From positions 195,780-259,779 of the forward strand of contig KV908509.1 of the NCBI GenBank assembly GCA_002005505.1: DNA of 64,000 bases, written 5' to 3'. The notes below the pieces were generated by a model. The model had not been told where the DNA came from. It saw only the letters and a list, made by a program, of their open reading frames with translations, and did not search any database. Source of the DNA: Botryococcus braunii (taxonomy: Eukaryota; Chlorophyta; Trebouxiophyceae). The translations under genes and the position numbers were made by a program. Below are positions 10,501-54,694 of this stretch, piece by piece (the first letter of the stretch is position 1; each line of letters opens with the position of its first letter).

Positions 10501-11172
10501 AGGGGTATGACGCTATCTGGGTTGCTGTTGATAGGTTGTCAAAGTATGCGCACTTTGCTCCGACGACCACTGACGCAAGTGCAGAAGTGATAGCTCAACT
10601 GTTGCGGACCCGTGTCTTCACCTTGCATGGGTTTCCCACTCACATTGTATCAGACAGAGATCCTAGGTGGGTGGGTCGCTTCTGTCAAGAGCTCTTTCGG
10701 TTGGCCGGTTGTCGCTCTGCGCTATCTACAGCGTTTCATCCGCAGACCGACGGTCAAACGGAACGAATTAATAGGATCTTGGAGGACTACTTGCGTCATT
10801 ACGTCACTGGAAGACACAACGACTGGGATAAACACATGTGTGAGGCTGAATTTTCTTACAACAACACTTTTCAGCAATCAATCAACACTACTCCATTCAG
10901 GTTGACTTTCGGTCAGGATCCCACGATTCCCTTCCAGGAAGTCTATGAAGGTGTGACATCTTCTGTACGTGAGTATGTACCAGCAGCAGCAGAGTTTGTA
11001 CGAAGGATGAGATGGGATCTAGAAAGAGCGCGGACATGTCTCAAAGCTGCGCAGGACCGCATGAAGGCATATGCGGACGCGAGGAGAAAAGATGCTCCTA
11101 TTTTGAAAATAGGCCAACCTGTCCTCCTCTCAACAAAGAATCTGAAATTCAAGCATACCCGGACAAGAAAGC
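7538..11172 (+). pseudogene. pol: Chromovirus Pol, N-terminal part (protease, RT, RNase H, integrase core)
   Basis: Domain order is protease (LVDTGATHSFV, near 8000), RT ([20 protein letters not shown] near 9118-9129), RNase H (SDASDYGVGAVL, TEKELAGVLYAL, TDHRAN), an H2C2 integrase zinc domain (GHPGRDRTLEL, CDSC) and an integrase core (MDLITGLP, SDRDPRW, GQTERIN). Breaks are a frameshift at about 8125-8145, TAG at 8596-8598, TAA at 8950-8952 replacing a Gln codon in the GYHQVRL-type RT block, and a frameshift at about 10164-10209. The frame then runs into the C1 insertion at 11173, and the end of the protein is at 18399-18966. In its present state it cannot be translated as one protein. Confidence 0.9.
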
Positions 11173-12048
11173 TGTTGAATGAATTGGTCAATACTGTACT
11201 TAGTGACATCCCCTGTCACATGCCATCAACAGCAGTGTAAACTATAGCCTTTATAGCCCTTTATGAACGGTATAGATCATACTCGTACCTCAATGACATA
11301 ACACGTGACTTGTACGATATGCGTTCTCAATAGACATTACGTATGGTAGTACTTTAGGATCCCTGCAGTCCGAGCCATCCCTGGGCAGCCCAGGAACGGC
11401 TCGGTACTTGTCCGAAGCATGTTGGTATCCTTGACCAACCTCTACTATTGGAGAGTGCTGTGTGCTGTTCCTGGAAACGTTGTAGCGTGGACGGTTTTTC
11501 CCACAGGCTACGAACTGACGCTGCCGTCGTGCCATCACTGCAGGTGTGTTTAGGATTCTCAAAGTCGTTCCAGATATGATTGTGCTCAAACATTCAGACC
11601 AGTTAGATATTACTGCTGTGTGCATTGATGAGAGTGCATGACGAGAGCGCACTGAATGTTTGACCTCATTGAGACTTATGTTGACGTCCACCGTTGTGGC
11701 GGTAAGATAGTTTCACTGTACAAACATCACAAAGAGACCTTGCTGAGTTACTGATGAACTATTATTGTATTCTAGTGACGTAAAGTAGACATCGCAAGGC
11801 CTCTTTGGTGCTGAACTCTGCTATCAGGCAAGGCGTAGTGTTACGTGGTCTTTAGCAAGAGTGAGAGCAGTTAACATCATTTGTAAGACTTGTCCGAAGC
11901 ATGTTGGTATCCTTGACCAACCTCTACTGTTGGAGAGTGCTGTGTGCTGTTCCTGGAAACGTTGTAGCGTGGACGGTTTTTCCCACAGGCTACGAACTGA
12001 CGCTGCCGTCGTGCCACCGCAGGTGACGCCGCAAGCAGAAATGCTTGA
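11173..12048 (+). repeat. 5' LTR of copia C1
   Basis: 876 bp, starting TGTTGAATGAATTGG and ending AATGCTTGA, so the ends are TG...GA instead of TG...CA. All four C-family LTRs share this end. A ~140-bp module (ACTTGTCCGAAGC...CACTGCAGGTG) occurs at about 11405-11543 and again at about 11887-12025. This copy lacks 3 bp in the second module compared with the other C LTRs. Confidence 0.92.
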
Positions 12049-12061
12049 GGTTATGGGCCCA
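12049..12061 (+). promoter_or_regulatory. Primer-binding site of C1 (half-tRNA type)
   Basis: GGTTATGGGCCCA directly abuts the LTR. It is the exact complement of the anticodon arm of animal initiator tRNA-Met, not of a tRNA 3' end. Drosophila copia is known to prime this way. Confidence 0.88.
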
Positions 12062-12357
12062 CGCTTTCCAAGCTGAGCTTGCAGGTGACGCACGACAGAT
12101 TTCCAGGGAGAAAAGGGGTTTCGGACCCCGCTTCGAGACTGCGAGCTTCACTGACGAGTGAGGTCTGGCCGTTCAAACATATCGAGCTAGTCACGTAAAA
12201 TTATTCCTTCTGTAGTGCTGGAAGGAATTGTTGTACAGTAGCAACTGGGCTGGGAAAGCAGAAGTACTTCTGGGACTGATCAACTCAGTGTCAGAGCTAG
12301 GAAGAAGTGCTTCCAGGGGAAGTCATTTAAGGCTTGGAGTGAAGAACTGGCTTGATC
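12062..12357 (+). other. C1 leader without ORF0
   Basis: About 300 bp between primer site and gag. I see no conserved reading frame here, in contrast to the other copia elements of this window. The matching C2 leader is 49230-49524. Confidence 0.6.
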
Positions 12358-15300
12358 ATGAAAACTAGAAGCAGACAAGTGATCATGAAAACGAGAAGTA
12401 AGCGCACTGCAACGGAGTCTGGATCAGCTGGGTCTGGCTCCTCCATCAGTGCATCACCCAGCCAGCCAGCAAACTCCACTGCGCAGAGTGGAGAGATGTG
12501 CATCGCAATGACGAAAACCGGTGGCGTCGTCACCACGAATGTCAAATGTCCAGTGACTCTGGACAGAGAGGGAGTGGAATTTCCACTCTGGGATCTGGCA
12601 TATGTGGCAGCCTGTGGCCTCAAAAGGTGCAAGGCAGCCATTGAAGCTCCAATGCCAGACACAGAGGAGAATGCAGCAGCGCTCCTAATGCTGATTGAGA
12701 GCGTCCCCAAGGCTGCTGGGGTGCAAAGCTGGCTGCAATGCAAGTGGCAGCCAATGCCTACCAGTGGGTTCGAGAGCGTTTTACTGGAGGGGCAGACCAG
12801 GAGGTTACAGCACGCTGGCTGGAGCTCCTACACACCAGCATGGGAGAGACAGAAACGTTGGAGGACTACTACAACAGAAAGGTGGCACTCTTCCATGCAC
12901 TCAAGCGAAATGGGCACTCCATCATGGAGAGAGAAGCCAAGCTGGCAATCATCAAGGGCCTGCCAGAGGAAGCGAAGGAGACTGGGATGTTCTCCTCATC
13001 TGCTGGGAAGGATCTAGAGGGACTGTGGGAGATCATCTCCACCACAGCCAAGGGACTGGGCTTCAACGACCAGGTCCCCAGAGTCACCCCTGTGGCCAGG
13101 GCAGCCATCACACCAGCCTACTCCACCACACCAGGGACTGCAAGCCCACAGGAGACCCAAGCTGGAGGCCAGGGGGGCCAAGCTTCATCGACCAAGGTGG
13201 AGGGACGGGACCGGCGTGACAACAGGCGCTGCCGCTACTGCAACAAGCTAGGCCATTTTGAGAGGAACAGCCTCAAGAAGGAGGCGGACGAGAAGATGCA
13301 ACAGAACCTGCAGCAAGTCATGGCTGCAATGGCCAATCTGCTTCCGCAATTCCAAAATCAAGCGTCGGCTGCAGTGGCTCGACCTCCGGAGGGCAGCGGG
13401 AACGGCAACAACTTTTTCCCCGGTGGATATCCACCACCCTCTGGTATGTCTGCCATGATTTCTCTGAATGTCTTAACACCAACACGCGTCATGCCAGAAG
13501 CGAGAAGTTTTCTGGTGGACAGTGGAGCCACCATCCACCTAGTCAATGATCTGTCCCTGCTACATTCCCCCACCCTGCACAGAAATCCCATTCCTTTGCA
13601 TATGGCTACGTCAGATGCCACGGGACAGATAATTGCAACTGGTTCCCTGTGCTTGAGCAGTGCAGAACAGCAACCCCTGTGGCTTCACAATGTGCATTGT
13701 GTTCCTTCAGCTACAGCTAATCTGATTTCAGTGACAGCTGCTATACGTGATGGGGCTAGTTTTGTGACAGACAGTGTGGGAAGTTACACTGGTATGCGTG
13801 GCGCTCAAAACTGGTCTTGTTCAGTTGCACAGAGAAATGGCCTGTATTTCTTGCAGAAGGTCAGTCCAGTCAGAAACCCTGTCTCTGTGTTTGTTAACAC
13901 AGCCAGAGCACCAGTCGCTCATGATTGCAGATTGAGAGCACTGTGGCACAGTAGACTGGGGCACCCAGGGGAGGTTAATATGAGGCGACTGCAGTCTGAA
14001 GATTCGGTCCTGGGCATCCCTGTATCTCTCTCCCCTTGCGCAAACTGTCACTCTTCATGTGAAGCGTGCATTCAAGGAAAGCACAGTCGTCCCCCTTTTG
14101 GAACCAGTTCCAGAGCAGCCACTGAGCCCCTTGAGAGAATTCATTTGGACACAGTTGGCCCCATCTCCCCTACAGCTATTACTGGGGAGCGCTTCTTTGT
14201 CACGATTGTGGATGAGGCTACGCACTATGTCATAGCCCTGGCAGTAAAAATCAAGGATGCAATCAGCAGTGAGACCTCCTGATTTTTTGGCAGAGGCAGT
14301 TGAACCGCTCTGTTAAGTGCATTCGTACTGACAGGGGGACAGAATTCCTCAACAGTACATTGAAGGGTTTCTGTACGCAGGAGGGAATTAAATTTGAGAC
14401 CTCTGCAGCATACACGCCTCAGCAAAATGGCGTTGCTGAACGGATGAACCGAACAATCAAGGAGAAGGCCAGAACACTCATGTTGCATGCACCTGCCAAA
14501 CAGTCACTCTGGAAGGAAGCAGTGGAGACAGCCTGCATCCTGTACAATATGGGACCTGTGACTGGACGTGACAAGACGCCTTATGAAGCCTTCCATGGGG
14601 TAAAGCCCGATGTATCCCTGCTCAGGACTTCTGGCTGTCTAGCACATGTGCACATACCTGATCACCAAAGGGGAGTGTTTGAGTCCAAGACCTCCCCTGG
14701 TCTCTTCACAGGGTATTCCAGTGTGTCAAAGGCATATAGAATTTATATGGGAAACGGGATTTGGAAAGAAAGCAGAGATGTTACCTTTCTGGAGCACTTA
14801 AGGGGCGCAGACACAGTGGGGCTTAGCACCATGTCTCCTGTGAGTCCAAATGCAGTCCAGCAGCCCTTTGCCTTGCCTTTTGTACAACAGGAGGGCCAGC
14901 AGTCCTTGGGTCAGTTGTCTTTTTGGGACTCAGATGATCCTGAGCCTCTCTGCAACCGAGAGGTCAACGTGCAGCAGTCCGGACCTGACTCCCCCTGTGC
15001 AACCACCCCCTGTGCAACTACCCCATGAGCAACCAACCCCTGTGAGAATTATGAGACTACAAGTGTCAACGTGGACGGGGAGCCCACTTCCTCGGAGCTG
15101 AGCCATACGCAGTCCGGCCACAGCTGGTCCGTACTCGGACACATGGAGAACCTGGCGCGAGGAGGCCAGGAGACCAAGTCACACATGCAACGTTTGAATA
15201 ATGTGCAAGAATGTGTTCGAATGGAAGTTGGGGCCATGGGTGTCCGAGGGCAAGACGGGCTGACCCGGCAGCAACGGTATGATCAGAGAGTAGCAGCACG

Positions 15301-17494
15301 TGAGACTGCAGCTGAGGTCACTGTGGAACATGATGGAGATGTGAGTGATGGAGAGAATAGGAGAATGTCAGAGGCCATTTGCCCAGGGGAAGCAACGGAA
15401 GCTCAGCCTAATGGACAGGACTTGGCCAGGCTGGAGGGCATGTCTGATCATGTAAGCGCTGAGAGTGAGGCAAGAGAGGTCAGTTTGGAGATTTCCAATC
15501 AGACACTTGATGGACAAAGGGAGTCTTCAGATGGCCAGGCTCTGCGTGCTTGTGAGGGACACACTGGGGAGTCACAGGTGTGTTGTGAGAGTACAAGCGT
15601 GGATGAGAGACACACTGCAGGGTGTCGCACAGTGCCAGATTATGCTGCGCCTTTGAGTGATGAGTGCGTTTGGGACATGATGAGTGATGTAAGACCCAGA
15701 TTGAGTGGAGCAGCATGTGAATCCTCCAAGGAGAGAAAGCTACAGACACCTCCAGAGTGGGAGAGAGTCAGAGAGGTGTGTAACGCAGTAACCTCGAGCG
15801 AAAGAGTAGTGGAAGCACGTGCGTGTGAGCCTAGAGAAAATAGCCATGTTGTGCATGATCACAATCTGAATCCTGTAAAGGGTCAGATACCTGGGGTGAG
15901 GTGGTCCAAGGTGCCAGTCCCTGGAAACCTCAGGGAGGCGCAAAGATCCCCTCAGTGGGAATTCTGGCGCCAGGCAATGCAAGAGGAGCAAGATTCTCTT
16001 GATGCGCACGAGGTGATGGAGTACGTTGAGAGACCCAGGGGACACAAGGTGATCCCTGTGCATTGGATCTTCTCTGTGAAGACTGATGCACATGGGAACG
16101 TGTTGAGATTTAAGGCTCGGCTTGTAGCCCAGGGCTGTAGACAGATTCCTGGAGTTGATGTAGATGAGGTCTTTGCACCTACCAGTAGCTATGGGTCCAG
16201 GAGGATTTTGCTAGCAACTGCTGCAGCAAAGAACATGGAAATTCACCAGGTGGATATAAAGACCCCCTTTTTGAATGGTGAATTAGAGGAGGAGGTGTAT
16301 GTGACACAGCCTCCTGGGTTTGATAATGGCAACCCCAACATTGTGTGCAGACTGCGTAAGGCCCTTTATGGCCTGAAGCAGGCTCCCAGGGCTTGGCACA
16401 AGACCCTGAATGAGAAGCTGCTGAGTATGGGATATGAAGTGTGTAAGAGCGATGCGGGAGTTTACATAAAGAGACACGAGGATGGGGAGCTGTCATACAT
16501 GCTTGTGTATGTTGATGATCTTTTGATTGTGGCAATGGGTGCGGAAGAGATAGAATGGGTGAAAAAGGAGCTGTTGGCAAGCTTCAAGATTCATGACCTT
16601 GGTGAAGTCAAGGACTTCTTGGGCTGCCAGATCCTGAGAGATAGAGAGAATCGGTGCTTATCACTGAGCTGCGTGCCTAAGATTGATGCACTGTGTGAGA
16701 AGTTTGGGGTGAGTGCTGAGTCACGTACAGTCGATACTCCCATGAGCAAAGACTTTGTGATGTCTGGGATGCCGCAGGTTACAGTGGGTGAGACCAGCTT
16801 TGGGTCTGGGACTCCACTGCCTCCCGGGCATAGATATTGTGAGCTTGTTGGGTCTCTGTTGTATATTGCTAATACAACTCGACCTGATATAGCTCAGGCT
16901 GTGGGTGTTCTGTCCCGTTACCGGAACGCTCCCACCACTGCCCACATGAATGAGGGCTTGAGGGTATTGAGGTATCTTCAGTCTACTCGAGAGTGTGTCT
17001 TAGTGCTGGGAGGGAAAGGGCCTGTGTTAGAAGGTCATGTTGATGCAGATTATGCTGGCGATATTGACAGCAGGCATTCTACCTCGGGATATGTGCTATC
17101 AGTGTTTGGCAGTGCTGTGGTCTGGGGTAGTAAGAAGCAACACTCAGTTGCTACCTCCACTGTGGAGGCAGAATTCATGGCAACCAGTCTGGCTATTAAG
17201 GAACTTAACTGGCTGCGTGGGTTCATGGAGGAAATCGGAACTCCTCCTTGGTCAGTGAAGCTATACTGTGACAATCAGGGGTGCATTGCTAACCTGAAAA
17301 ACCCACTGTATAGCAAGTATACTAAGCACATTGCAGTGTGCTTCCACTTTGCACGTGAAGCTATTGCAAAGGGGCAGGTTACACTTTGCTATGTGGAGTC
17401 TGCAAGGAACAAGGCAGACATGCTGACAAAGCCTCTCGCTCGCCCTGCCTTCCAGATGCACAGGCGAGGGTTTGGACTTGTGAAGATGACATAG
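12358..17494 (+). pseudogene. gag-pol: Copia C1 Gag-Pol, broken
   Basis: The same polyprotein as the intact C2 copy, beginning at ATG 12358. Order: Gag with zinc knuckle (CRYCNKLGHFERN, last Cys changed to Ser at 13269-13271), protease DSGATIHLV, integrase (LWHSRLGHPG, TDRGTEF, NGVAERMNR), a Ser/Glu-rich linker, RT with YVDD near 16510, and RNase H to the stop at 17494. Damage: a frameshift near 12715-12725, loss of 7 bases at about 14270, and TGA at 15026-15028 where C2 has a Cys codon. In RT the conserved KTAFLNG block has Ala to Pro near 16263. These breaks make it non-autonomous. Confidence 0.92.
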
Positions 17495-17519
17495 GTGACA
17501 GGGTGCTGTCAAGGGGAAG

Positions 17520-18398
17520 TGTTGAATGAATTGGTCAATACTGTACTTAGTGACATCCCCTGTCACATGCCATCAACAGCAGTGTAAACTATAGCCATTA
17601 TAGCCCTTTATGAACGGTATAGATCATACTCGTACCTCAATGACATAACACGTGACTTGTACGATATGCGTTCTCAATAGACATTACGTATGGTAGTACT
17701 TTAGGATCCCTGCAGTCCGAGCCATCCCTGGGCAGCCCAGGAACGGCTCGGTACTTGTCCGAAGCATGTTGGTATCCTTGACCAACCTCTACTGTTGGAG
17801 AGTGCTGTGTGCTGTTCCTGGAAAGGTTGTAGCGTGGACGGTTTTTCCCACAGCCTACGAACTGACGCTGCCGTCGTGCCATCACTGCAGGTGTGTTTAG
17901 GATTCTCAAAGTCGTTCCAGATATGATTGTGCTCAAACATTCAGACCAGTTAGATATTACTGCTGTGTGCATTGATGAGAGTGCATGACGAGAGCGCACT
18001 GAATGTTTGACCTCATTGAGACTTATGTTGACGTCCACCGTTGTGGCGGTAAGATAGTTTCACTGTACAAACATCACAAAGAGACCTTGCTGAGTTACTG
18101 ATGAACTATTATTGTATTCTAGTGACGTAAAGTAGACATCGCAAGGCCTCTTTGGTGCTGAACTCTGCTATCAGGCAAGGCGTAGTGTTACGTGGTCTTT
18201 AGCAAGAGTGAGAGCAGTTAACATCATTTGTAAGACTTGTCCGAAGCATGTTGGTATCCTTGACCAACCTCTACTGTTGGAGAGTGCTGTGTGCTGTTCC
18301 TGGAAACGTTGTAGCGTGGACGGTTTTTCCCACAGGCTACGAACTGACGCTGCCGTCGTGCCATCACTGCAGGTGACGCCGCAAGCAGAAATGCTTGA
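17520..18398 (+). repeat. 3' LTR of copia C1
   Basis: 879 bp, preceded by the purine tract caaggggaag. It differs from the 5' LTR at roughly half a dozen positions by eye, plus the 3-bp gap. It is followed by the duplication AAAAC, and then chromovirus integrase sequence resumes. Confidence 0.92.
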
Positions 18399-18966
18399 AA
18401 AACTCTTACCTCGGTTTATTGGGCCTTTTCCCATCGTACAGGAGGTATCATCGGTAGCTTTCAGAATTAGGCTTCCAAAAAGCCTGCGGGTTCATGATGT
18501 CTTCCATGTTTCTATGCTTAAGCCTTATAAGGAAGGTGGGACGGTACAACCTCCTCCTCTACCTGAGATTATTGAAGGAGAAGAGGAGTATGAGGTCGAG
18601 GCTGTGCTAGGCCATAGGGAACGAAAGTTACGAGGTCGGAAAACTGCGCGAGAACATCTTGTAAAATGGACCGGGTATGAGGATATTCACAATACTTGGG
18701 AGCCAGAGGATAACTTAGAACACGCCAGGGAGGCGTTACAGCGGAGCACAGGCCGGAACAAAAAGAAAAGGTGGACAAGAAGCATAAAGGACGTGGTAAA
18801 AATGCTCAGAAGCAGCGGAAGCGCGCTAGGCGCGCTTAGTGCTCTGGCAGGTCGGGTCGGCCCCTCGGTGCGTCCTTGGGCCACCTTGGAAGCTCTAAGC
18901 TTGGCCCTTAGAGTGTACCCTGGGGGTATCCCAGTACTAGAGCGCACTCGGATGAATAGGACGTAA
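18399..18966 (+). pseudogene. pol: Chromovirus integrase C-terminus with chromodomain
   Basis: This completes the pol product interrupted at 11173. It begins with the LPRFIGPFPIVQ block and FHVSMLKPY, typical of the C-terminal part of Ty3/gypsy integrase. A chromodomain follows (EYEVEAVLGHR, LVKWTGY, NTWEPEDNL), at about 18585-18740. In this family the chromodomain is thought to tether integrase to modified histone tails and guide insertion. A basic tail of about 70 residues (KKKRWTRSIKD) runs to the stop at 18966. This part of the frame is open, but it is cut off from the rest of pol by the C1 insertion. Confidence 0.9.
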
Positions 18967-22480: not shown

Positions 22481-23785
22481 CTAGTAACCACCTCTGTCAA
22501 TGCACAGCTGAGCAAGCGCATCCCGCACCCTCCTTCCATGGTGTGACACTGCAATACCATCCTGATCAGCATTGTGCTGGGCCACCTGGTTTATCCCGTT
22601 CAGGAGCTCTTGTCCCGGGCCATAATCAAACTGAAGCTCACATATGTTGTGCAAGATGCAGCAAGCCCTTGAGATCTTAATTCCAAATTCAGGCTCTGGC
22701 AAGTGGGCCTGTGTCAAGACTCTCCACCTCATTTTCAGGAGACCAAAGGCATTCTCCACAACACGCCGAGTGCGAATAACACTATAATTAAACGCATGTT
22801 GGGGACTTCCTGGCTGCCATTCACCCCCATATGTCTTCATAAGGTAGGGCTCGAGGGCGAATGCAGCGTCCCCGACAAGAAAAGGCCTGACAACCACATC
22901 CCCAACCCTTTCACACAATTCAGGAGGAGCAAACCGTCCACTTGCCATCTTTGCCTTGAAACTGCTATTATTCCAAACCCCGGCATCCCCCGCCACACCA
23001 GGAGCAAATTTTAGATGCAGAAAACGCATATTGGAGTCCACAACGGCCAGCATAAGGATGGAAATAAATCCTTTGTAGTTTCTAAATGAAGCACCTTGTG
23101 GACCCCCGGGCCTGACCATCGCTATGTGAGTGCCATCAATGGCCCCACAGCACATGGGCAGTTTAGCAAGTTCCTGAAATCCTGCAATAATGCCCTGTAA
23201 CCCTTGCAAGTCATTGCGAGGAAAGTGAATGAATTGCTTTTCAAACTCCTCTATCAAAGCATCGACAACTTCATGAACGACATCATGTACAGTAGCTTTT
23301 CCTACCTGCCATTCATCTGCTAGCACCCCATAAAAGGTACCATGTGCTAAGAAGTCCATGGTGGTCCATCGTGATAAACGATGTTTTGCAGACAGGGGTT
23401 CTCTGATGTGAAAGTCGTGGTTGAGTTTGCCCCGCACCCTATTGAAGATCCATTCAAAGGTACTTTTAAATACCCTGAATGTAGCGAAGTACTTCTCGTT
23501 TTCAAAGTCTTGGCCATTGAGCGGCCACACATGTTCCATCTCATGAAGTTTGCTGGCATGTCTCTCCCATGCCCAAACTCTACGTTGTAAACTTGCTGAT
23601 GTATTTTCAGAAAGGTACTGCGTCACAAGCAAGTGTGCACAGCCAGGACTCCCACCCACGAGAGAAGCCAAGACAGGGAAGTATATCAAAGCGACCTCTC
23701 CTGTTGAGGGTGGAACCGCCTGAGTCACCGAGCTAAGGTGATGGTGCATGAGTACGAGCAGCAAAGCTAGCTCGAAAGGACCCAT
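22481..23785 (-). CDS. HARBI1-like PIF/Harbinger transposase
   Basis: An intact frame of 434 residues from ATG 23785. It carries the DDE nuclease fold of this family, with catalytic candidates Asp217 (AIDGTHI), Asp306 (LVGDAAFAL) and Glu344 (VVENAFGLL). Upstream is a helix-turn-helix-like region (HRLSRWTTMDFLAHGTFYGV) typical of HARBI1 proteins. It cuts at the terminal repeats in the nucleus. The bases ttgcag stand just before the ATG on the minus strand, and a good donor (AAG/GTAAGT) lies near 23878. A short 5' exon and intron are therefore likely, and the true start may be upstream. No stops or frameshifts are seen, unlike the accessory gene. Confidence 0.88.
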   Translation of the reverse strand: MGPFELALLLVLMHHHLSSVTQAVPPSTGEVALIYFPVLASLVGGSPGCAHLLVTQYLSENTSASLQRRVWAWERHASKLHEMEHVWPLNGQDFENEKYFATFRVFKSTFEWIFNRVRGKLNHDFHIREPLSAKHRLSRWTTMDFLAHGTFYGVLADEWQVGKATVHDVVHEVVDALIEEFEKQFIHFPRNDLQGLQGIIAGFQELAKLPMCCGAIDGTHIAMVRPGGPQGASFRNYKGFISILMLAVVDSNMRFLHLKFAPGVAGDAGVWNNSSFKAKMASGRFAPPELCERVGDVVVRPFLVGDAAFALEPYLMKTYGGEWQPGSPQHAFNYSVIRTRRVVENAFGLLKMRWRVLTQAHLPEPEFGIKISRACCILHNICELQFDYGPGQELLNGINQVAQHNADQDGIAVSHHGRRVRDALAQLCIDRGGY

Positions 23786-28508: not shown

Positions 28509-28878
28509 TGTTGTATTGGATGAGTTATTTATGCCTTTCCCTCAGTGGAGTAATAGTGGCTATTCCGTCAGTGACAATAATAAATGACTAATATGGGCGA
28601 AACTACAAAGACTTAGCGGTTAGGAACAATTTGAACGAAGATAAAGATAACGCAAGTTACAGACACGTTTAGTGCAGGAAGGTAGTGGTGCTAGCACGGA
28701 GAGGCAAGGCACTTGTTTGGGACTTCACAAGCACTCCGGGTGTTTCCTTAAAGTTGCCCAATCAGTCCTTGATTGTTCATGTTCTAGACTCTACTCTTCG
28801 TCACACAGTAGAGCGAACTTTGACTCACACCCTCCGTGCCGCCACTGCACAGGAATACGCCAAGCCCATAACCTAACA
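28509..28878 (+). repeat. 5' LTR of copia IV
   Basis: 370 bp, TGTTGTATTGG...CCTAACA. It carries the U3 motif TGCCTTTCCCTCAG and a single copy of the structured module, from about CACTTGTTTGG to GCACAG, followed by GAATACGCC. The apical stem CTCTAC/GTAGAG is conserved with copia III, while the outer stem is GTTC/GAAC instead of CAGTGTC/GACACTG. Confidence 0.95.
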
Positions 28879-28888
28879 GGTTATGGGC
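28864..28888 (+). promoter_or_regulatory. Hairpin joining LTR end to primer-binding site (copia IV)
   Basis: GCCCATAACC (28864-28873), loop TAACA, then GGTTATGGGC (28879-28888): a perfect 10-bp inverted repeat across the LTR/primer-site border. The left arm matches the anticodon arm of initiator tRNA-Met itself. The same arrangement occurs in copia III at 40222-40246. Confidence 0.75.
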
Positions 28889-28891
28889 CCA
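28879..28891 (+). promoter_or_regulatory. Primer-binding site of copia IV (half-tRNA type)
   Basis: GGTTATGGGCCCA directly after the LTR. It complements the anticodon arm of initiator tRNA-Met. Confidence 0.9.
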
Positions 28892-28946
28892 CCACTCTCC
28901 CGTTGAGTGTGTGTGGCTGGCTCAAGAATCGGAGACGAGAAGCTGT

Positions 28947-29444
28947 ATGGCCAAGCGCCGCAGAGCAAAGCAGACTGCTCGCAAGACTACCAACGTCGAC
29001 GTTCCTGCTCGGCTAAGAACCGGTCCACCTTCGTACAACGATAGAATCAGAAACGGAGGACAGCAAGGAGATCGGACTCCTGACGAACGGGCTGCCATTG
29101 TAAAAGACTACGTGTTTCATCTGTACGTTGGACGACCTCTCCCCCAGCCAGCGTGGTTTGGTTCAAGATTTTCCACGTATCCAGCGTATAAGTTCACTCC
29201 TTGGGAACAATCATTTGTAAATTTGGAACCAGGTTTCATCACCAAAGAGAAATTTCGGAGGTATTGCAGTGCAACGAAGTGGCTCAACAGAGAGCAAGAA
29301 TTTGCTGAGCACACTGCATATTTGGCGGTTGAGTCTGCACTGGCAACTATTCCAGTGAAGGCCTTTCAGGATGTGCTGATTCCTAACATTCGTGACGAGT
29401 CTGAGTGGGAAACTGATTCAGACCTTGAAGGTGTTGTGGAGTAA
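28947..29444 (+). CDS. ORF0 of copia IV, conserved accessory protein of unknown function
   Basis: 165 residues from ATG 28947, the first ATG with a basic start (MAKRRRAKQTARK). An open stretch upstream lacks a better ATG. Nothing in it matches a family I know. It has a basic N-terminus that could be nuclear-localising or RNA-binding, a core with conserved aromatic blocks (PSYNDR, ERAAIVKDYV, WFGSRF, YPAYKFTPWE, EPGFITKEKF), and an acidic end (ESEWETDSDLE). Related frames sit in the same place in copia III (39668-40165), II (42600-43124) and D (57879-58402). Protein similarity between subfamilies is moderate, so the reading frame is evidently under selection. It ends 51 bases before the gag ATG. 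Stop codons between them exclude simple readthrough. Confidence 0.8.
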   Translation: MAKRRRAKQTARKTTNVDVPARLRTGPPSYNDRIRNGGQQGDRTPDERAAIVKDYVFHLYVGRPLPQPAWFGSRFSTYPAYKFTPWEQSFVNLEPGFITKEKFRRYCSATKWLNREQEFAEHTAYLAVESALATIPVKAFQDVLIPNIRDESEWETDSDLEGVVE

Positions 29445-29495
29445 GTGGTTTAAGTGTGCCTCTGACGCTAGAAACTGACATTCTGTGTGCACACT

Positions 29496-32400
29496 ATGAC
29501 TTCTAAGAAGAAGAGTCAGTCATCTAGTGGAACCTCTGCATCTGTGAGAGAGACCACCACCTCAACACCTGTGAGAGAGCCTTGCACTCCCAGCACATCC
29601 AGGGGAGAAGGTGATGAGTTGCCAAAGGTGATTCCTACACTTGTGAAGGTACATATCAAGCTAAAAGAAAAGGGACACAACATTATGATTTGGAAGAATG
29701 CGTACCTTGCAGCAAATGAGGCCAAGGGATCACTGCCTGCAGTACTTGAGGACATGCCTGGGACCACGCATGATGCTGCAGCACTGCTGTTGCTGTATGA
29801 ATCTGTACCCGAAGAGTGGCACGGGGAATTATCTGATTTGTCCTCTGCATATGTTGCATATGAATATATCTGTAGGAAGTTCATTGGGGGTTATAATCTC
29901 CAAGCCAACATGGACTGGCTGTTGGAGATGAGTCAGGGGATGAAGCACGACGAGACCATTTCCCAATATGTGAGTCGCATGCTGAATCTGAAGGCATGTC
30001 TTCAGAGGAATAATCATCCTCTTCTGGATAGCTTTGTAGCTACCCAAATTGTGCAGGGTCTACCTGAAACAGCCAAGGAGACAGGCAGCTTGTCAACAGC
30101 AGCAGGGACCCCACTCAACAAGCTGGCAGACCTGCTGAGGACCACAGCCGTTGCTCTGGGATTTGATGAGACTGCCCCACGTCAGCCACGAGTTTTGGCT
30201 GTTCCTCAGGGCAGCAACAGAGTCAGCACCCCTGGAGCAGTCAGTGGAGCCAGTCCTTCGCCCTCAACCGGACAGTCTGATTCCAAGGGAGTTTGCAACT
30301 ACTGCAATAGAAAGGGCCATTATTGGAGAGACTGCAGAAAGAGGCGCAGGGATGAGGAGACACAGAGGAACGTGGTGGCCGCTGTCCAACAGCTGCAAGG
30401 CATGTGGCCTCAGGGCCAGCCATCTATGGGTGGACCCCATCCCCCAGTAGCCCAACTGGCCCATCATGGTGCAGATGCCTTCCCTGCTTGGTTTCAGCCT
30501 CCTGCTCCACCTCCACCTCCTCCTGAAGGTATGCTGTACACAATATCTCACAATGTCCTGGACAGTACTATCAGTAAACCCCTGCAGCACTCCTGGCTGG
30601 TTGACAGTGGGGCCTCGGTCCACCTAGTAAATGACGTGGCATTGCTGCATAACCCTATCATCCATGCCAAACCAATTCCCCTGCACTTGGCCACCTCTGA
30701 TGCCACTGGGTGTATTATTGCATCTGGGTCAGTCTGCATTTTGAGCCCGCAACGCATTCCCCTCTGGATCCACCATGTGCAGTGTGTCCCTTCAGCTACC
30801 ACCAACATCCTGTCAGTATCTGCTGCCCTTAGGGATGGTGCAATATTCCAAACAGACAATGTGGGTGCCTTTTCGTATGTCAGTGGACCAAACCACTGGA
30901 GAGCTCAGGTCACTGCAGAGATGGGACTGTACTACATTCATAGTGTAGTTGCAGTGAGAGGAAACAGCACCTCAAAGCATGCAGCCAGTGCAACCAAACA
31001 GCCAAAATCCAGTATCTTATCACACAGCTGTGCCAAACGTTACTTGTGGCATAGCAGAATGGGACACCCTGGAGAAACGTGGATGCAGCGTCTTGCTAAG
31101 GAGAACCTGGTGACTGGGATTGACACCTCTCTCTCTCCCTGCACTGATTGCCCGGTACACTGTGAAGCGTGTATTGAAGGAAAGACTGCCAGACCCTCCT
31201 TCGGAATCAGTACCAGACCTGCCTTGGAACCCCTGGATCGAGTACACATAGACACTGTGGGTCCTATTACACCTGCAGCCATTACTGGTGAACGTTTCTG
31301 GGTTACTGTACTGGATGAAGCCTCACAGTGGAAAGCAGTTATTCCAGTAAAGTCCAAAGACACCATCAGTGCAGCTGTCAGGGACTTACTTGTTTACTGG
31401 CAGACACAACGAAAAACCACTGTGAAGTGTGTCAGATGTGACAGAGGAACTGAATTTCTTAATGCCCGGTTCAAGGAGTTCTGTGCCTCCCAGGGGACTA
31501 AGCTGGAGACCTCTGCCCCATACACCCCACAGCAGAATGGAGCAGCTGAACGAGCCAACCGAACCCTGAAGGAAAGAACCCGGACTATCCTGAGCTTTGC
31601 TGCTGCCAGTCCCACCCTCTGGAAAGAAGCCCTGGAGACAGCATGCACCCTGCTTAACATGGGCCCAAGCACAGGCAGGGACCTTACCCCCTTTGAATTA
31701 TTCTGGGGATATAAGCCTGATGTCTCACTCCTGCGCACATGGGGTTGCCTTGCATATGTGCATATCCCAGATGTCCAGAGGCCAGTCTTTGCACCAAAAA
31801 CTGTGCCAGGAATGCTCACAGGTTATTCAGCCTCCTCCAAAGCCTATCGGATATACATGGGTGGGGGTATATGGCGAGAGAGCAGAGATGTCATCTTTGT
31901 GGAGCATCTCAGAGGGGCCTCTCGTGTTGGTCTCAGTGTGACTCCTGCTCAGTCTGAGGAATTTCTGTCCCCTGTTCCCTCTGAACCCAGCACTACCAAA
32001 CAGCACCCAGAGCCAGTTAAGGTATCTTGTGGAGACGACAGTGAGGCAGAGATCCAGGACTCATCAGTCGAGACAGTACATTCACACATTTCCCAGGAAG
32101 ACACAGACTCAGAATGTCCAGGACCCTCTGGGAAGGCTGAGCCCGAGCCTGACCCCCAGAGATCCACTGCTCCCGCGGAGATCCGAAGGACCATCGAAGC
32201 AGCTCTGGACCTGGCCCGCGGCATTCATTCGGACTCGGGACTACAGCAACAAATGATGCGAGCTCAAGAGTCTCTCAGACCAACAAGCCTGGAGAACTCC
32301 AATTTGGCTGCTGATGGGCTAACAAGAGCCCAGAGGCATGAGCAACGAACACTTGCAAGAGAACTCCTGCTGTCACAGGAGGTGGGTGAGAGCAGAGACA

Positions 32401-34895
32401 GAGTGGGGCTAACTGAAAGTGACACACAGTCACAGGGACCAGGGGAAGTGGAGATAGATGAGTGCCTGTCTGAGAGCCCTGATTTTCATGTTAGTGATGA
32501 GAGGGGGGCAGCCACAGTCATGACTGCAAATGGTCCCAGGGAGCTGAGTTGCACGGGTGGGTCCTGTCCAGTGAATGAGTGTCATGTCAGTGGTGAGACC
32601 TGTGTGGAAACATCTGGCTCTCCCCATCAGTGGCATGAACTGGTAGGGGAAGGTGGTGACAGCCACAGTCCTGAGAGGAGACATTCCACTCTCTCGGAAT
32701 CAGCCAGAAATGTCTGTGCGAGCAGTACTGGGTCAGCATCCCAGTACTTGTGTGAGAGCCGAGAAGAGGAGGTGAATCAGGTGCACGGACAATGTGTGGT
32801 ACCACCAAATTACAAGTGCAGCCTGAGAGGTACCTGTGTCTGGGAGAAGGATGTCAGGGATGAGAGGTCACAGACTCTTGTGACACAACGTGAAAGTCAG
32901 AGACATACAAGTCAAGAAAGGAAGGGGAAGAAAAGGGGTGACCAGAGCCTACCTCCCTCTGCCTGTGAGAGCCCTCAAGAGCCTGAGCTTGAGAGGATGT
33001 GTCAGAGTGTGGATGTGGAGGTGAACCGGAAGCTCAGACAATGTGAGAAACCTCAAGACTATGGATGCTTCCCGGGAGGTACCTGTGTTTGGGAGGAAGA
33101 TGTGAGCGTGCGAGGCAACAAGTTGAGCAGTGCGAGGTGCGAATCCAAGAGAGAGAGAAACATGCGAGAAAGCCCTGATACCACTGAGAGAAAAGCTAGC
33201 TGTAGTGCGGCGAGTGTCAGTGGAAGAGTAGTGGGTTCTGAGGGTGCAACCAACGATTCTCCCAAGGGCAAGGGAGAGGAGGGGAAGCACACTGGGGTTA
33301 GATTTGGTAAAATCCATGTTCCCTCTAATTTAAGAGAAGCTCAGATGTCTCCTCAGTGGGAATACTGGAAGGCTGCGATGCAAGAAGAGCAGAATTCATT
33401 AGACACCCATGAGGTTATGGAATATGTTCCCAGACCTCATGGGCATAAGGTAATACCAGTTCACTGGATTTTCTCAGTGAAAATGGATGCACATGGCAAT
33501 GTGTTGAGATTCAAGGCAAGATTGGTTGCTCAGGGTTGTCGACAAATTCCTGGAGTAGATGTCATGGAGGTCTTTGCACCCACCAGCAGCTATGGAGCTA
33601 GGAGAACCTTGCTAGCTGTGGCTGCTAGGGAAGGTTATGAGATTCACCAGGTAGATGTTAAGACAGCTTTTCTCAATGGTGAGCTGGAGGAAGAAGTGTA
33701 TGTAACGCAACCTCCTGGATTTGAGAATGGTGATCGCAATACCGTGTGTCGACTCAAAAAGGCACTGTATGGCCTAAAGCAGGCCCCACGGGCCTGGCAT
33801 AAAACCCTGAATGACAAACTTGAAGTCATGGGGTATGAGGTGTGCAAGAGTGATGCTGGAGTTTATGTGAGATGCACTGAAGATGGGGGTAAATCCTATG
33901 TGCTAATTTATGTAGATGATCTCTTGATTGTATCCAAGAGCATGTCAGAGGTGGAGAGAGTGAAAGAGCTTCTCAAGAAAGAATTCACTATCCACGATTT
34001 AGGGGAAGTGAAGGATTTCTTAGGTTGTCAAGTCATGAGAGATAGAGAGAAGGGGTTAATCTCCCTGAGTTGCATTCCTAAGATAGATGCACTTGTGGAG
34101 AAGTTTGGTCTTGATCTTGAGTCAGTTGGGCCCGATACCCCAATGACAAAAGATTTTGTAATGTCTCAGATGCCTGCACCTAAGGATGGGAGTGATAGTA
34201 TTGGTGCTGGGAGTGTTCTGCCTCCTGGTCATCGATACTGTGAGTTAGTAGGGTCACTACTCTACATAGCTAACACCACTCGTCCTGATATATCCCAGGC
34301 TGTAGGAGTTCTGTCGAGGTACAGGATGTCACCCACAACAGCACACTGGAATGAGGCAATCCGTGTGTTGAAATATCTTAAGGGAACCCGAGACCTGGTT
34401 CTGATCCTTGGTGGAAAAGAAACAGAGTTGGAGGGATATGTTGATGCTGATTACGGTGGGGATCAAGACCACCGTTTCTCCACCACCGGCTTCGTTCTCA
34501 CTGTGTTTGGAGGAGCAGTTGTGTGGGGAAGTAAAAAGCAATCTGCTGTGGCTACTTCCACAGTAGAAGCAGAATTCATGGCAGCAAGTGCTGTTGTGAA
34601 GGAAGCTAATTGGCTGAGGGGATTCCTAGAGGAAATTGGTGTGTTACCCTGGATAGTGAAGATACATTGTGATAACCAAGGGTGCATCAACCATCTCAGG
34701 AATCCAGTGTATTCTAAACATACCAAACACATTGCAATCAGCTGTCACTTTGCTCGTGAAGCTATTGCAAAGGGGCAGGTTGACTTCAAATACATTCAGT
34801 CTGCCAGAAATGTGGCTGACATCTTCACTAAACCTCTAGTAAAATTAGTGTTTCAGGGTCATAGAAACTCACTGGGTCTTGCCAAGTTCTGGTGA
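29496..34895 (+). CDS. gag-pol: Copia IV Gag-Pol polyprotein, intact
   Basis: 1799 residues in one frame from ATG 29496 (MTSKKKSQSS). Order by residue: Gag with zinc knuckle CNYCNRKGHYWRDC at 267-280; proline-rich stretch near 330-345; aspartic protease (WLVDSGASVHLV, Asp370); integrase zinc region (LWHSRMGHPGE, about 515, to CPVHCEACIEGK) and core with Asp586, Asp649 and Glu685, the last two separated by 35 residues as expected. A Ser/Glu/Cys-rich linker of about 400 residues (790-1240) follows, containing two copies of a GTCVWE-DV block. RT has YVDD at 1472-1475. RNase H (VDADYGGDQ, Asp1650) ends with ADIFTKPL. The polyprotein yields particle, protease, integrase and RT for copy-and-paste transposition. 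All catalytic residues I can check are present. Confidence 0.97.
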   Translation: MTSKKKSQSSSGTSASVRETTTSTPVREPCTPSTSRGEGDELPKVIPTLVKVHIKLKEKGHNIMIWKNAYLAANEAKGSLPAVLEDMPGTTHDAAALLLLYESVPEEWHGELSDLSSAYVAYEYICRKFIGGYNLQANMDWLLEMSQGMKHDETISQYVSRMLNLKACLQRNNHPLLDSFVATQIVQGLPETAKETGSLSTAAGTPLNKLADLLRTTAVALGFDETAPRQPRVLAVPQGSNRVSTPGAVSGASPSPSTGQSDSKGVCNYCNRKGHYWRDCRKRRRDEETQRNVVAAVQQLQGMWPQGQPSMGGPHPPVAQLAHHGADAFPAWFQPPAPPPPPPEGMLYTISHNVLDSTISKPLQHSWLVDSGASVHLVNDVALLHNPIIHAKPIPLHLATSDATGCIIASGSVCILSPQRIPLWIHHVQCVPSATTNILSVSAALRDGAIFQTDNVGAFSYVSGPNHWRAQVTAEMGLYYIHSVVAVRGNSTSKHAASATKQPKSSILSHSCAKRYLWHSRMGHPGETWMQRLAKENLVTGIDTSLSPCTDCPVHCEACIEGKTARPSFGISTRPALEPLDRVHIDTVGPITPAAITGERFWVTVLDEASQWKAVIPVKSKDTISAAVRDLLVYWQTQRKTTVKCVRCDRGTEFLNARFKEFCASQGTKLETSAPYTPQQNGAAERANRTLKERTRTILSFAAASPTLWKEALETACTLLNMGPSTGRDLTPFELFWGYKPDVSLLRTWGCLAYVHIPDVQRPVFAPKTVPGMLTGYSASSKAYRIYMGGGIWRESRDVIFVEHLRGASRVGLSVTPAQSEEFLSPVPSEPSTTKQHPEPVKVSCGDDSEAEIQDSSVETVHSHISQEDTDSECPGPSGKAEPEPDPQRSTAPAEIRRTIEAALDLARGIHSDSGLQQQMMRAQESLRPTSLENSNLAADGLTRAQRHEQRTLARELLLSQEVGESRDRVGLTESDTQSQGPGEVEIDECLSESPDFHVSDERGAATVMTANGPRELSCTGGSCPVNECHVSGETCVETSGSPHQWHELVGEGGDSHSPERRHSTLSESARNVCASSTGSASQYLCESREEEVNQVHGQCVVPPNYKCSLRGTCVWEKDVRDERSQTLVTQRESQRHTSQERKGKKRGDQSLPPSACESPQEPELERMCQSVDVEVNRKLRQCEKPQDYGCFPGGTCVWEEDVSVRGNKLSSARCESKRERNMRESPDTTERKASCSAASVSGRVVGSEGATNDSPKGKGEEGKHTGVRFGKIHVPSNLREAQMSPQWEYWKAAMQEEQNSLDTHEVMEYVPRPHGHKVIPVHWIFSVKMDAHGNVLRFKARLVAQGCRQIPGVDVMEVFAPTSSYGARRTLLAVAAREGYEIHQVDVKTAFLNGELEEEVYVTQPPGFENGDRNTVCRLKKALYGLKQAPRAWHKTLNDKLEVMGYEVCKSDAGVYVRCTEDGGKSYVLIYVDDLLIVSKSMSEVERVKELLKKEFTIHDLGEVKDFLGCQVMRDREKGLISLSCIPKIDALVEKFGLDLESVGPDTPMTKDFVMSQMPAPKDGSDSIGAGSVLPPGHRYCELVGSLLYIANTTRPDISQAVGVLSRYRMSPTTAHWNEAIRVLKYLKGTRDLVLILGGKETELEGYVDADYGGDQDHRFSTTGFVLTVFGGAVVWGSKKQSAVATSTVEAEFMAASAVVKEANWLRGFLEEIGVLPWIVKIHCDNQGCINHLRNPVYSKHTKHIAISCHFAREAIAKGQVDFKYIQSARNVADIFTKPLVKLVFQGHRNSLGLAKFW

Positions 34896-34896
34896 G

Positions 34897-34913
34897 GAAA
34901 AGGCAAGGGGAAG
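34897..34913 (+). promoter_or_regulatory. Polypurine tract of copia IV
   Basis: ggaaaaggcaaggggaag directly before the 3' LTR, the expected plus-strand primer. The same tract precedes the 3' LTRs of copia A, D and III. Confidence 0.85.
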
Positions 34914-35283
34914 TGTTGTATTGGATGAGTTATTTATGCCTTTCCCTCAGTGGAGTAATAGTGGCTATTCCGTCAGTGACAATAATAAATGACTAATATG
35001 GGCGAAACTACAAAGACTTAGCGGTTAGGAACAATTTGAACGAAGATAAAGATAACGCAAGTTACAGACACGTTTAGTGCAGGAAGGTAGTGGTGCTAGC
35101 ACGGAGAGGCAAGGCACTTGTTTGGGACTTCACAAGCACTCCGGGTGTTTCCTTAAAGTTGCCCAATCAGTCCTTGATTGTTCATGTTCTAGACTCTACT
35201 CTTCGTCACACAGTAGAGCGAACTTTGACTCACACCCTCCGTGCCGCCACTGCACAGGAATACGCCAAGCCCATAACCTAACA
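34914..35283 (+). repeat. 3' LTR of copia IV
   Basis: 370 bp, no difference seen from the 5' LTR. It is followed by the duplication ATTTC and the resumption of copia III. Confidence 0.95.
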
Positions 35284-39667: not shown

Positions 39668-40165
39668 TTACTCCACAATGCCTTCAAGGTCTGAATCAGT
39701 TTCCCACTCAGACTCGTCACGAATGTTAGGGATCAGCACATCCTGAAAGGCCTTCACTGGAATAGTTGCCAGTGCAGACTCAACCGCCAAATATGCAGTG
39801 TGCTCAGCAAATTCTTGCTCTCTGTTGAGCCACTTCGTTACACTACAATACCTCCGAAATTTCTCTTTGGTGATGAAACCTGGTTCCAAATTATCGAATG
39901 ATTGTTCCCAAGGAGTGAACTTGTATGCTGGATACGTGGGAAATCTTGAACCAAACCACGCTGGCAGGGGGAGAGGTCGTCCAACGTACAGATGAAACAC
40001 GTAGTCTTTTACAATGGCAGCCCGTTCGTCAGGAGTCCGATCTCCTTGCTGTCCTCCGTTTCTGATTCTATCGTTGTACGAAGGTGGACCGGTTCTTAAC
40101 CGAGCAGGAACGTCGACGTTGGTAGTCTTGCGAGCAGTCTGCTTCGGTCTGCGGCGCTTGGCCAT
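39668..40165 (-). CDS. ORF0 of copia III
   Basis: 165 residues from ATG 40165, unbroken. Nearly identical to ORF0 of copia IV (MAKRRRPKQTARK start, YPAYKFTPWE core, acidic end), with only a few substitutions such as Phe to Leu near the WFGSRF block. It ends 51 bases before the gag ATG at 39616. Function unknown. It remains open although the gag-pol next to it is frameshifted. Confidence 0.78.
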   Translation of the reverse strand: MAKRRRPKQTARKTTNVDVPARLRTGPPSYNDRIRNGGQQGDRTPDERAAIVKDYVFHLYVGRPLPLPAWFGSRFPTYPAYKFTPWEQSFDNLEPGFITKEKFRRYCSVTKWLNREQEFAEHTAYLAVESALATIPVKAFQDVLIPNIRDESEWETDSDLEGIVE

Positions 40166-42599: not shown

Positions 42600-43124
42600 T
42601 TAGTTGTCGCTCCTTTCAGAGAGTCGGGAGTCTCCGTCTTCGTCCTCACTGTCTGTCTCCGTGAGCCACTCGTCCACGTGGTAGCCCTCGCTGTGGAGTA
42701 TTAATCTATTGATAAAGCTGTCTCCCAGGCTGCTCAATGCCAACTCAATAGCTGCGTAGGCTGCTTTCTCCGTCCAGTATGCTTCTTGCGACGGTCCTCC
42801 CGTCTGCTGTAGGCACCTCTCAAAAATTGCTCTGGTCAGGAATCCAGGCTCTCCGTTGATGAACGAAACTTCCCACACTGTAAATTTGTAGGCTGGATAT
42901 CTTGGGAAGCGATCCTGAAACCACTGTGGAGGCGTGAGAGCTCCCAGTCCGTAAGCTGCGTTGACGAAGTCTTTCACAAGAAATGCTCGTTCTTCAATTG
43001 TTCGTGGTCCTCTCTCTCCTTCTGCCTTTCTTCGCTCGTTATATGACGGAGGGGGAGGTGGTGGTGGTCTAACAGGTCCAGGTGCGCCAGCGCGCATGCG
43101 TCCACTTTGCCTCGTTCGCGCCAT
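42600..43124 (-). CDS. ORF0 of copia II
   Basis: 174 residues from ATG 43124 (MARTRQSGRM), unbroken although the rest of copia II is heavily damaged. It shares with copia IV/III ORF0 the blocks PSYN-R, ERAFLVKDFV, WFQDRF, YPAYKFTVWEVSF, EPGFLT and an acidic tail. It also has a run of seven prolines near residue 25. The stop lies only 14 bases before the gag ATG and in another frame. Function unknown. Confidence 0.72.
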   Translation of the reverse strand: MARTRQSGRMRAGAPGPVRPPPPPPPSYNERRKAEGERGPRTIEERAFLVKDFVNAAYGLGALTPPQWFQDRFPRYPAYKFTVWEVSFINGEPGFLTRAIFERCLQQTGGPSQEAYWTEKAAYAAIELALSSLGDSFINRLILHSEGYHVDEWLTETDSEDEDGDSRLSERSDN

Positions 43125-48337: not shown

Positions 48338-49216
48338 TGTTGAATGAATTGGTCAATACTGTACTTAGTGACATCCCCTGTCACATGCCATCAACAGCAG
48401 TGTAAACTATAGCCGTTATAGCCCTTTATGAACGGTATAGATCATACTCGTACCTCAATGACATAACACGTGACTTGTACGATATGCGTTCTCAATAGAC
48501 ATTACGTATGGTAGTACTTTAGGATCCCTGCAGTCCGAGCCATCCCTGGGCAGCCCAGGAACGGCTCGGTACTTGTCCGAAGCATGTTGGTATCCTTGAC
48601 CAACCTCTACTGTTGGAGAGTGCTGTGTGCTGTTCCTGGAAACGTTGTAGCGTGGACGGTTTTTCCCACAGGCTACGAAGTGACGCTGCCGTCGTGCCAT
48701 CACTGCAGGTGTGTTTAGGATTCTCAAAGCCGTTCCAGATATGATTGTGCTCAAACATTCAGACCAGTTAGATATTACTGCTGTGTGCATTGATGAGAGT
48801 GCATGACGAGAGCGCACTGAATGTTTGACCTCATTGAGACTTATGTTGACGTCCACCGTTGTGGCGGTAAGATAGTTTCACTGTACAAACATCACAAAGA
48901 GACCTTGCTGAGTTACTGATGAACTATTATTGTATTCTAGTGACGTAAAGTAGACATCGCAAGGCCTCTTTGGTGCTGAACTCTGCTATCAGGCAAGGCG
49001 TAGTGTTACGTGGTCTTTAGCAAGAGTGAGAGCAGTTAAGATCATTTGTAAGACTTGTCCGAAGCATGTTGGTATCCTTGACCAACCTCTACTGTTGGAG
49101 AGTGCTGTGTGCTGTTCCTGGAAACGTTGTAGCGTGGACGGTTTTTCCCACAGGCTACGAAGTGACGCTGCCGTCGTGCCATCACTGCAGGTGACGCCGC
49201 AAGCAGAAATGCTTGA
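48338..49216 (+). repeat. 5' LTR of copia C2
   Basis: 879 bp, TGTTGAATG...AATGCTTGA. Two ~140-bp modules beginning ACTTGTCCGAAGC, near 48573 and 49055, both ending CACTGCAGGTG. Confidence 0.95.
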
Positions 49217-49229
49217 GGTTATGGGCCCA
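49217..49229 (+). promoter_or_regulatory. Primer-binding site of copia C2 (half-tRNA type)
   Basis: GGTTATGGGCCCA directly after the LTR, complementary to the initiator tRNA-Met anticodon arm. Confidence 0.9.
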
Positions 49230-49524
49230 CGCTTTCCAAGCTGAGCTTGCAGTGACGCACGACAGATTTCCAGGGAGAAAAGGGGTTTCGGACCCCGCTT
49301 CGAGACTGCGAGCTTCACTGACGAGTGAGGTCTGGCCGTTCAAACATATCGAGCTAGTCACGTAAAATTATTCCTTCTGTAGTGCTGGAAGGAATTGTTG
49401 TACAGTAGCAACTGGGCTGGGAAAGCAGAAGTACTTCTGGGACTGATCAACTCAGTGTCAGAGCTAGGAAGAAGTGCTTCCAGGGGAAGTCATTTAAGGC
49501 TTGGAGTGAAGAACTGGCTTGATC

Positions 49525-54669: not shown

Positions 54670-54694
54670 GTGACAGGGTGCTGTCAAGGGGAAG

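Follow-up and report, generated by a model that had tools for sequence, protein, structure and literature searches.

The DNA analysed here, a stretch of 64,000 nucleotides from the trebouxiophyte green alga Botryococcus braunii (the window), carries several Ty1/copia elements, recognised by their long terminal repeats (LTRs), primer-binding site and copia-type gag-pol, in which the pol domain order was judged by eye. Element IV (28509–35283, forward strand) hosts the first-described copy of an upstream frame, ORF0. Its LTRs (28509–28878 and 34914–35283) are 100% identical over 370 nt. The primer-binding site GGTTATGGGCCCA (28879–28891, forward strand) lies directly 3' of the LTR, and the identical string occurs in elements II, C and their relatives. 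We take it to pair with the anticodon region, and not with the 3' end, of initiator tRNA-Met; priming by this anticodon region is known from Drosophila copia. An AUG is contained within the primer site itself, and an upstream frame of 7 codons, read from the sequence, begins there (28883–28906, forward strand). ORF0, an open frame of 165 codons (28947–29444, forward strand), follows the primer site, which starts at 28879, and precedes the gag ATG at 29496, from which an open gag-pol extends to 34895 on the forward strand. In Pfam, the gag-pol matched Pol_BBD above the cut-off and Retrotran_gag_2 slightly below it.

The preliminary description had placed a frame of 165–174 codons between primer site and gag in four elements, which holds for IV, III and II but not for D. 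ORF0 of element III (165 codons; 39668–40165, reverse strand) is intact, carries the same type of tail and is 96% identical to ORF0-IV. That of element II (174 codons; 42600–43124, reverse strand) is 41–43% identical to IV over the aligned part and, as had been noted, has stayed intact beside a wrecked gag-pol, in which gag survives as short open pieces only. ORF0 of element D (57879–58402, reverse strand) is broken, its tail and body lying in different frames: the ATG-initiated tail MARKRPTGRMSTGGSRPP leaves frame near a proline run, after which another frame stays free of stops for 158 codons. The conserved blocks quoted earlier (ERA--VKD-V, WF--RF, YPAYKFT-WE-SF and EPG--T) are present. A Pfam search with the four window copies matched no family, in keeping with the earlier failure to recognise one, and gave no similarity to gag families. 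The C lineage was rightly said to lack the frame. The 308-nt leader of element C (49217–49524, forward strand) shares the primer site, has no long frame and gave no tblastn match to ORF0. Since element C (48338–55573) has LTRs identical over 879 nt and an open gag-pol of 1714 codons, this ORF0-less sister lineage has also been recently active.

Three further features were observed in the window. A second copy of copia C (11172–18398, 99% identical to element C) is apparently nested in a Ty3/gypsy element (6222–18966), whose integrase frame ends near 11240 and whose chromodomain-like frame resumes near 18300–18966, both read by eye. A 434-codon frame at 22481–23785 (reverse strand) resembles, also by eye, a PIF/Harbinger-type DDE nuclease, and a tandem array with units of about 241 nt occupies 58871–59999.

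ORF0 recurs at hundreds of places in the 176-Mb genome of B. braunii. All 150 scored candidates for ORF0-IV (the best 150 of 802) were matches, 126 of them without an internal stop and 24 with; for ORF0-II (the best 150 of 792) all 150 matched again, 133 without and 17 with. The stops were counted by hand, the two lists have some loci in common, and both are skewed towards intact copies because they are ranked by score. Moreover, the copies are related, so that their number is not a number of events. In protein searches, relatives were found only among Botryococcus gene models and in JGI and ENA contigs; a third such search returned five proteins, all already found. Viral contigs scanned with the relative P0008 as query yielded no ORF0 relative, and an SRA search gave four partial matches, one of which was above the cut-off.

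The copies were compared for selection by the Nei-Gojobori method. Of 22 pairs, 18 had a measurable dS and gave dN/dS ratios of 0.08–0.33 for ORF0; the other four were saturated. This purifying selection extends across subfamilies to a dS of about 1.8. The conserved extra protein that had been claimed upstream of gag is thereby borne out; values near 1, which the preliminary description had named as speaking against it, were not seen. Gag was comparable in five of the ten pairs chosen, where its dN/dS was 0.12–0.22, with 0.16–0.33 for ORF0. Five pairs per clade, summed, gave pN/pS values of 0.28 and 0.39 for the tail as against 0.21 and 0.20 for the core, which is under the tighter constraint. 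In ORF0, a copia lineage of B. braunii has a true accessory protein, one that is under selection as such. In two comparisons the synonymous distances of the neighbouring genes were discordant (IV versus III of the window: gag dS 0.333, ORF0 dS 0.074; L034 versus L035: 1.506 and 0.292), which suggests different histories, with the 5' region exchanged between subfamilies by recombination.

Translation of gag downstream of ORF0

Two clades of ORF0 are distinguished below. Clade IV comprises elements IV and III and their relatives, and the M9 clade, with methionine at position 9 of the tail, comprises II, D and a third subfamily (V). How gag is translated behind ORF0 had been raised as unclear, and avoidance of out-of-frame AUGs inside ORF0 provides part of an answer. 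Twelve such AUGs were found in 17 representatives, as against 54.2 expected from synonymous shuffling, a 4.5-fold depletion (Poisson 5e-12, although the 17 representatives are related). Neither the 5' ends of gag (77 versus 61.9 expected, from the 7 of 17 loci that gave one) nor the gag-pol frames of IV (80 versus 68.6) and C (68 versus 62.1) showed any depletion. A deficit confined in this way to ORF0 implies that ribosomes probably scan through it to gag, in which case selection would act against out-of-frame AUGs there. Gag would thus be reached by ribosomes that pass the ORF0 AUG, with leaky scanning as the presumed exact route. At position −3 of that AUG, all ten clade IV representatives have T and all ten M9-clade representatives have G or A, the latter not being the weak context favoured by leaky scanning. 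Short upstream frames also precede the ORF0 AUG, one of them beginning in the primer site. Given this context and these frames, reinitiation may contribute. In any case, the AUG avoidance offers a testable account of gag translation where another frame comes first.

Leaders were read in 20 representatives, three of which had no readable leader and two no gag ATG. The distance from ORF0 to gag is 14–17 nt in nine of the ten M9-clade representatives and 62 nt in the tenth, and 42–53 nt in the eight of ten clade IV representatives with a reading; the frame of gag relative to ORF0 is 0, 1 or 2. Such variable spacing and frame rule out stop-codon read-through and an N-terminal extension of Gag, and element IV has several in-frame stops in between. 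Splicing is a further possible route to gag: on inspection of splice sites by eye, an AG lies immediately 5' of the gag ATG in some copies, not in all. The same layout bears on whether ORF0 is a structural accessory of Gag, serving particle assembly or RNA packaging with its tail incidental. That ORF0 adjoins gag, and that its core is more constrained than its tail, would fit such a role. Set against this are its inconstant position and frame, the lack of similarity to gag families and the C-lineage elements with identical LTRs, which move without ORF0. We consider a Gag accessory very improbable.

Resemblance of the ORF0 N-terminus to the histone H3 tail

ORF0 is laid out as an H3-like N-terminus, predicted to be unstructured, followed by a mostly helical body and an acidic C-terminus. 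The basic start reported earlier is present; what had been missed is that it resembles the tail of histone H3 and that, in one clade, the residue corresponding to K9 is methionine. The tail of clade IV (MAKRRRAKQTARKTT in element IV, 28947–28991, forward strand) has the motif KQTARKTT, and KQTARK occurs unchanged in 41 of the 45 rows of clade IV (two of which, L001 and L028, are the same places as IV and III of the window). Elements II and D and the third subfamily have variants of (A/G)RT(K/R)Q(T/S)GRMSTGG, represented in element II by MARTRQSGRMRAGAPGPV (43071–43124, reverse strand), with M at the K9 position.

Tail scores against H3 were evaluated with composition-preserving shuffles. For 11 of 14 tails the score was reached by 0–18 of 20,000 shuffles (2 for element IV, 18 for element II), and weaker tails were P0012 (32) and P0011 (94). 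With 50,000 shuffles, the counts were 0 for P0004, 5 for P0005, 8 for P0017 and 250 for P0010. P0017, a distant relative with 37% identity to P0011, comes from an ENA contig some 1 kb long and has the tail RKRQTARKSTSSK. Four tails of subfamily V (L101, L102, L103 and L105) were matched by none of 20,000 shuffles. Three relatives gave no significant H3 likeness, namely P0018 (33,930 of 50,000), P0008 (4,427 of 20,000) and L104 (4,142 of 20,000), a remote ORF0-like frame retrieved with P0017 as query; P0018 and L104 indicate that the ORF0 body can exist without an H3-like tail. As controls, the gag N-termini of IV, II and C showed no H3 likeness (9,749, 16,160 and 2,700 of 20,000), and scores for other histone tails were 15–26, as against 44–50 for H3 residues 1–20; H4, H3 21–40 and reversed H3 all fell far below H3 1–20.

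Searches of structure-derived sequences lead to the same part of H3. For a histone-free profile made from 20 ORF0 proteins, the best of 177,635 PDB sequences was an H3 tail (residues 1–21 on 1–19, E 0.63). Two unlike single tails, one per clade, returned only histone H3 among the best 60 of 73 and the best 60 of 108 matches, with best E-values of 0.1 and 0.085. These PDB values (0.085–0.63) are not significant alone, and it is the agreement between the searches that matters. Furthermore, hhalign aligned ORF0 columns 1–18 with H3 1–18 at E 2.9e-6, while in the same profile comparison the helical body aligned with no part of H3. As to a histone-fold core, VIA listings for ORF0 contained no histone entry, and such listings exclude nothing. 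Taken as sequence comparison, these results establish that the N-terminus imitates the H3 tail, over about residues 1–16, in both clades.

As to the origin of the tail, each of the three host H3 genes L089–L091 matches in two parts that meet near residue 35, and the H3 tail may accordingly have the first exon to itself. Capture of this exon was considered and set aside as conjectural; many codons differ.

Methionine in place of H3 lysine 9

The M9 clade was examined in 96 tails, for which 60 were additionally fetched and three dropped (L142 and L143, without an ATG at the fetched place, and L031, a duplicate of II). At position 9, 93 of them have M and three have I; R8 is found in 95, R2 in 96 and G12 in 95. 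The 96 tails comprise 33 distinct 18-mers and hence do not represent 96 events. Departures from H3 are A7 to G in 95 tails and K4 to R in 79, by which enzyme binding may be weakened. Subfamily V, found with the P0017 query, reads MGRTKQ(S/T)GRMSTGGKRPF. Its member L102 (GRTKQTGRMSTGGKR) is identical in 12 of 15 residues, R8-M9 included, to ARTKQTARMSTGGKA, the H3K9M peptide that was crystallised with G9a according to the available text of that study (PMC5030085). Other M9-clade tails agree with this peptide in 7–11 of 15 residues, and one I9 tail in 6 of 15. The hallmark of a K-to-M inhibitor, namely methionine at the target lysine, an arginine before it and a histone-like context, is thus present in the M9 clade and absent in clade IV, where K9 is kept.

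These positions allow two other explanations to be weighed. The tail might serve nuclear import or the binding of RNA or DNA only, its H3 likeness being a convergence of basic peptides. The constraint on the tail is only moderate, and P0008 and P0018 keep basic starts without the likeness, as such a role would predict. However, composition-preserving shuffles seldom reach the H3 score, H4, H3 21–40 and reversed H3 score so much lower, and R2, R8, M9 and G12 are each retained in 93–96 of the 96 tails, though M9, G12 and S10-T11 add no charge. We therefore regard a purely basic tail as unlikely. Alternatively, M9 could be an internal translation start that gives a shorter ORF0, its coincidence with H3-K9 being fortuitous. 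One gene model, P0006, is indeed annotated from this residue (MSTGYTG), but R8, S10, T11 and G12 are kept as in H3, the three exceptions at position 9 are isoleucine, and clade IV has no AUG there; an internal start is most improbable. In favour of the H3-mimic reading, M9 is the sole internal methionine in 8 of 10 M9-clade representatives, despite the avoidance of AUGs in ORF0.

A tree built from the bodies alone places all M9 tails and one I9 tail together in a 14-row clade (support 88/100), and clade IV with K9 in a separate clade (90/92); P0017, also with K9, lies outside on a long branch. This topology suggests that K9 is probably ancestral and that M9 was gained once, a tentative reading in view of the long outgroup branches and the R at position 9 of P0011 and P0012.

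A candidate decoy for H3K9 methylation and its known counterparts

On balance, we lean towards ORF0 being a retrotransposon-encoded decoy for host H3K9 methylation, acting as a K9M trap in one clade and as a K9 substrate mimic in the other. In the M9 clade (II, D and V), methionine at K9 after R8 reproduces the layout of the H3K9M inhibitor peptide; ORF0 of this type may occupy and trap a host H3K9 methyltransferase, and new element copies could thereby escape silencing. In clade IV (IV and III; KQTARKT), which keeps the lysine, ORF0 would act as a competing substrate of the methyltransferase, or else its tail, once methylated, might be a bait for H3K9me readers. Selection on ORF0, the likeness of its tail to H3, the conservation of M9 and the AUG avoidance are observed, whereas enzyme binding, inhibition and anti-silencing are inferred. 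A bolder version, which we advance tentatively as a serious possibility, is that the retrotransposon has its own 'oncohistone': the H3K9M tail would trap the H3K9 methyltransferase, the unmutated K9 tail of the sister clade would be a substrate bait, and both strategies would descend from one H3-mimic ancestor within one algal genome.

Candidate targets exist in the host, where 11 SET-domain matches were found. The fragment L097 matched SUVH6 best in the PDB (1.5e-10), with H3K4 enzymes nearly as close (3.3e-10); it alone of the fragments fetched was compared in this way, and the rest were judged by eye. A Pre-SET search of the host gave no match, and its controls were equally without signal. 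K-to-I replacement also inhibits some SET enzymes. It is not mentioned in the available text of the H3K9M study (PMC5030085).

The resemblance could, in a different way, reflect a chromatin tether, with host readers of the H3 tail binding ORF0 and bringing the element complex to chosen chromatin for integration. There is precedent in the chromodomains that target the integrases of chromoviruses, the tail resembles the reader-bound part of H3, and clade IV keeps K4, R8 and K9. A tether is nevertheless quite unlikely, because 93 of the 96 tails of the other clade have M instead of K9, and, as far as the available text states, none of the fission-yeast chromodomains tested bound the H3K9M peptide (PMC5030085).

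The decoy reading has a close biochemical counterpart in that same system. In the available account, H3K9M in fission yeast dominantly blocks H3K9 methylation and traps Clr4, and the peptide is an in vitro inhibitor of Clr4 whose binding to the SET domains of Clr4 and G9a is stronger with SAM (PMC5030085). There, however, the inhibitor is a mutated histone or a synthetic peptide, whereas ORF0 is a natural, transposon-encoded non-histone protein, in which A7 is G (PMC5030085). From the part of the literature consulted, EZHIP contains a K27M-like peptide that acts on EZH2 and has an arginine immediately before the methionine, so that, like ORF0, it carries a short K-to-M mimic of a histone without being a histone itself; it demonstrates that such a protein can work by K-to-M mimicry (PMC12842176). 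Unlike ORF0, it is a mammalian host protein that mimics K27 near its C-terminus, whereas the ORF0 motif mimics K9 at the N-terminus of a retrotransposon protein (PMC12842176).

Several transposon-encoded proteins are also comparable, in each case as described in the available text. The VANC proteins of VANDAL transposons counteract epigenetic silencing, as is proposed for ORF0, but they are sequence-specific anti-silencing proteins of Arabidopsis transposons, with no histone mimicry mentioned in that text (PMC10398659, PMC5735166). The LTR elements Retrosat2, RIRE3 and RIRE8 likewise have an extra frame of unassigned function, also called ORF0, upstream of gag-pol; these are grass elements whose ORF0 evolves faster than ORF1 (mean Ka 0.257 versus 0.078), and no H3-like tail is described in the part available (PMC3485330). 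An AlkB domain in orchid Ty3/gypsy elements is another addition to an LTR element thought to counter host surveillance, although as an RNA demethylase it differs in both element type and mechanism (PMC9289625).

Should the decoy reading be true, a selfish element would have arrived at the K-to-M trick known from tumours and EZHIP. This would help to explain the hundreds of copies of a copia lineage, in a species whose three races consist of 24–43% repeats, with LTR elements leading class I in race B, according to the available text (PMC11286282). It would also provide a natural H3K9 methyltransferase inhibitor to test, and make a heterochromatin arms race testable in a green alga. Open-access PMC text yielded neither a retrotransposon-encoded histone-tail mimic nor a natural K9M mimic. 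Histone mimicry, K-to-M inhibition, extra frames upstream of gag, captured domains and transposon anti-silencing proteins are all known already; what appears to be new lies in the carrier, in the protein family and in the natural occurrence of a K9M site.
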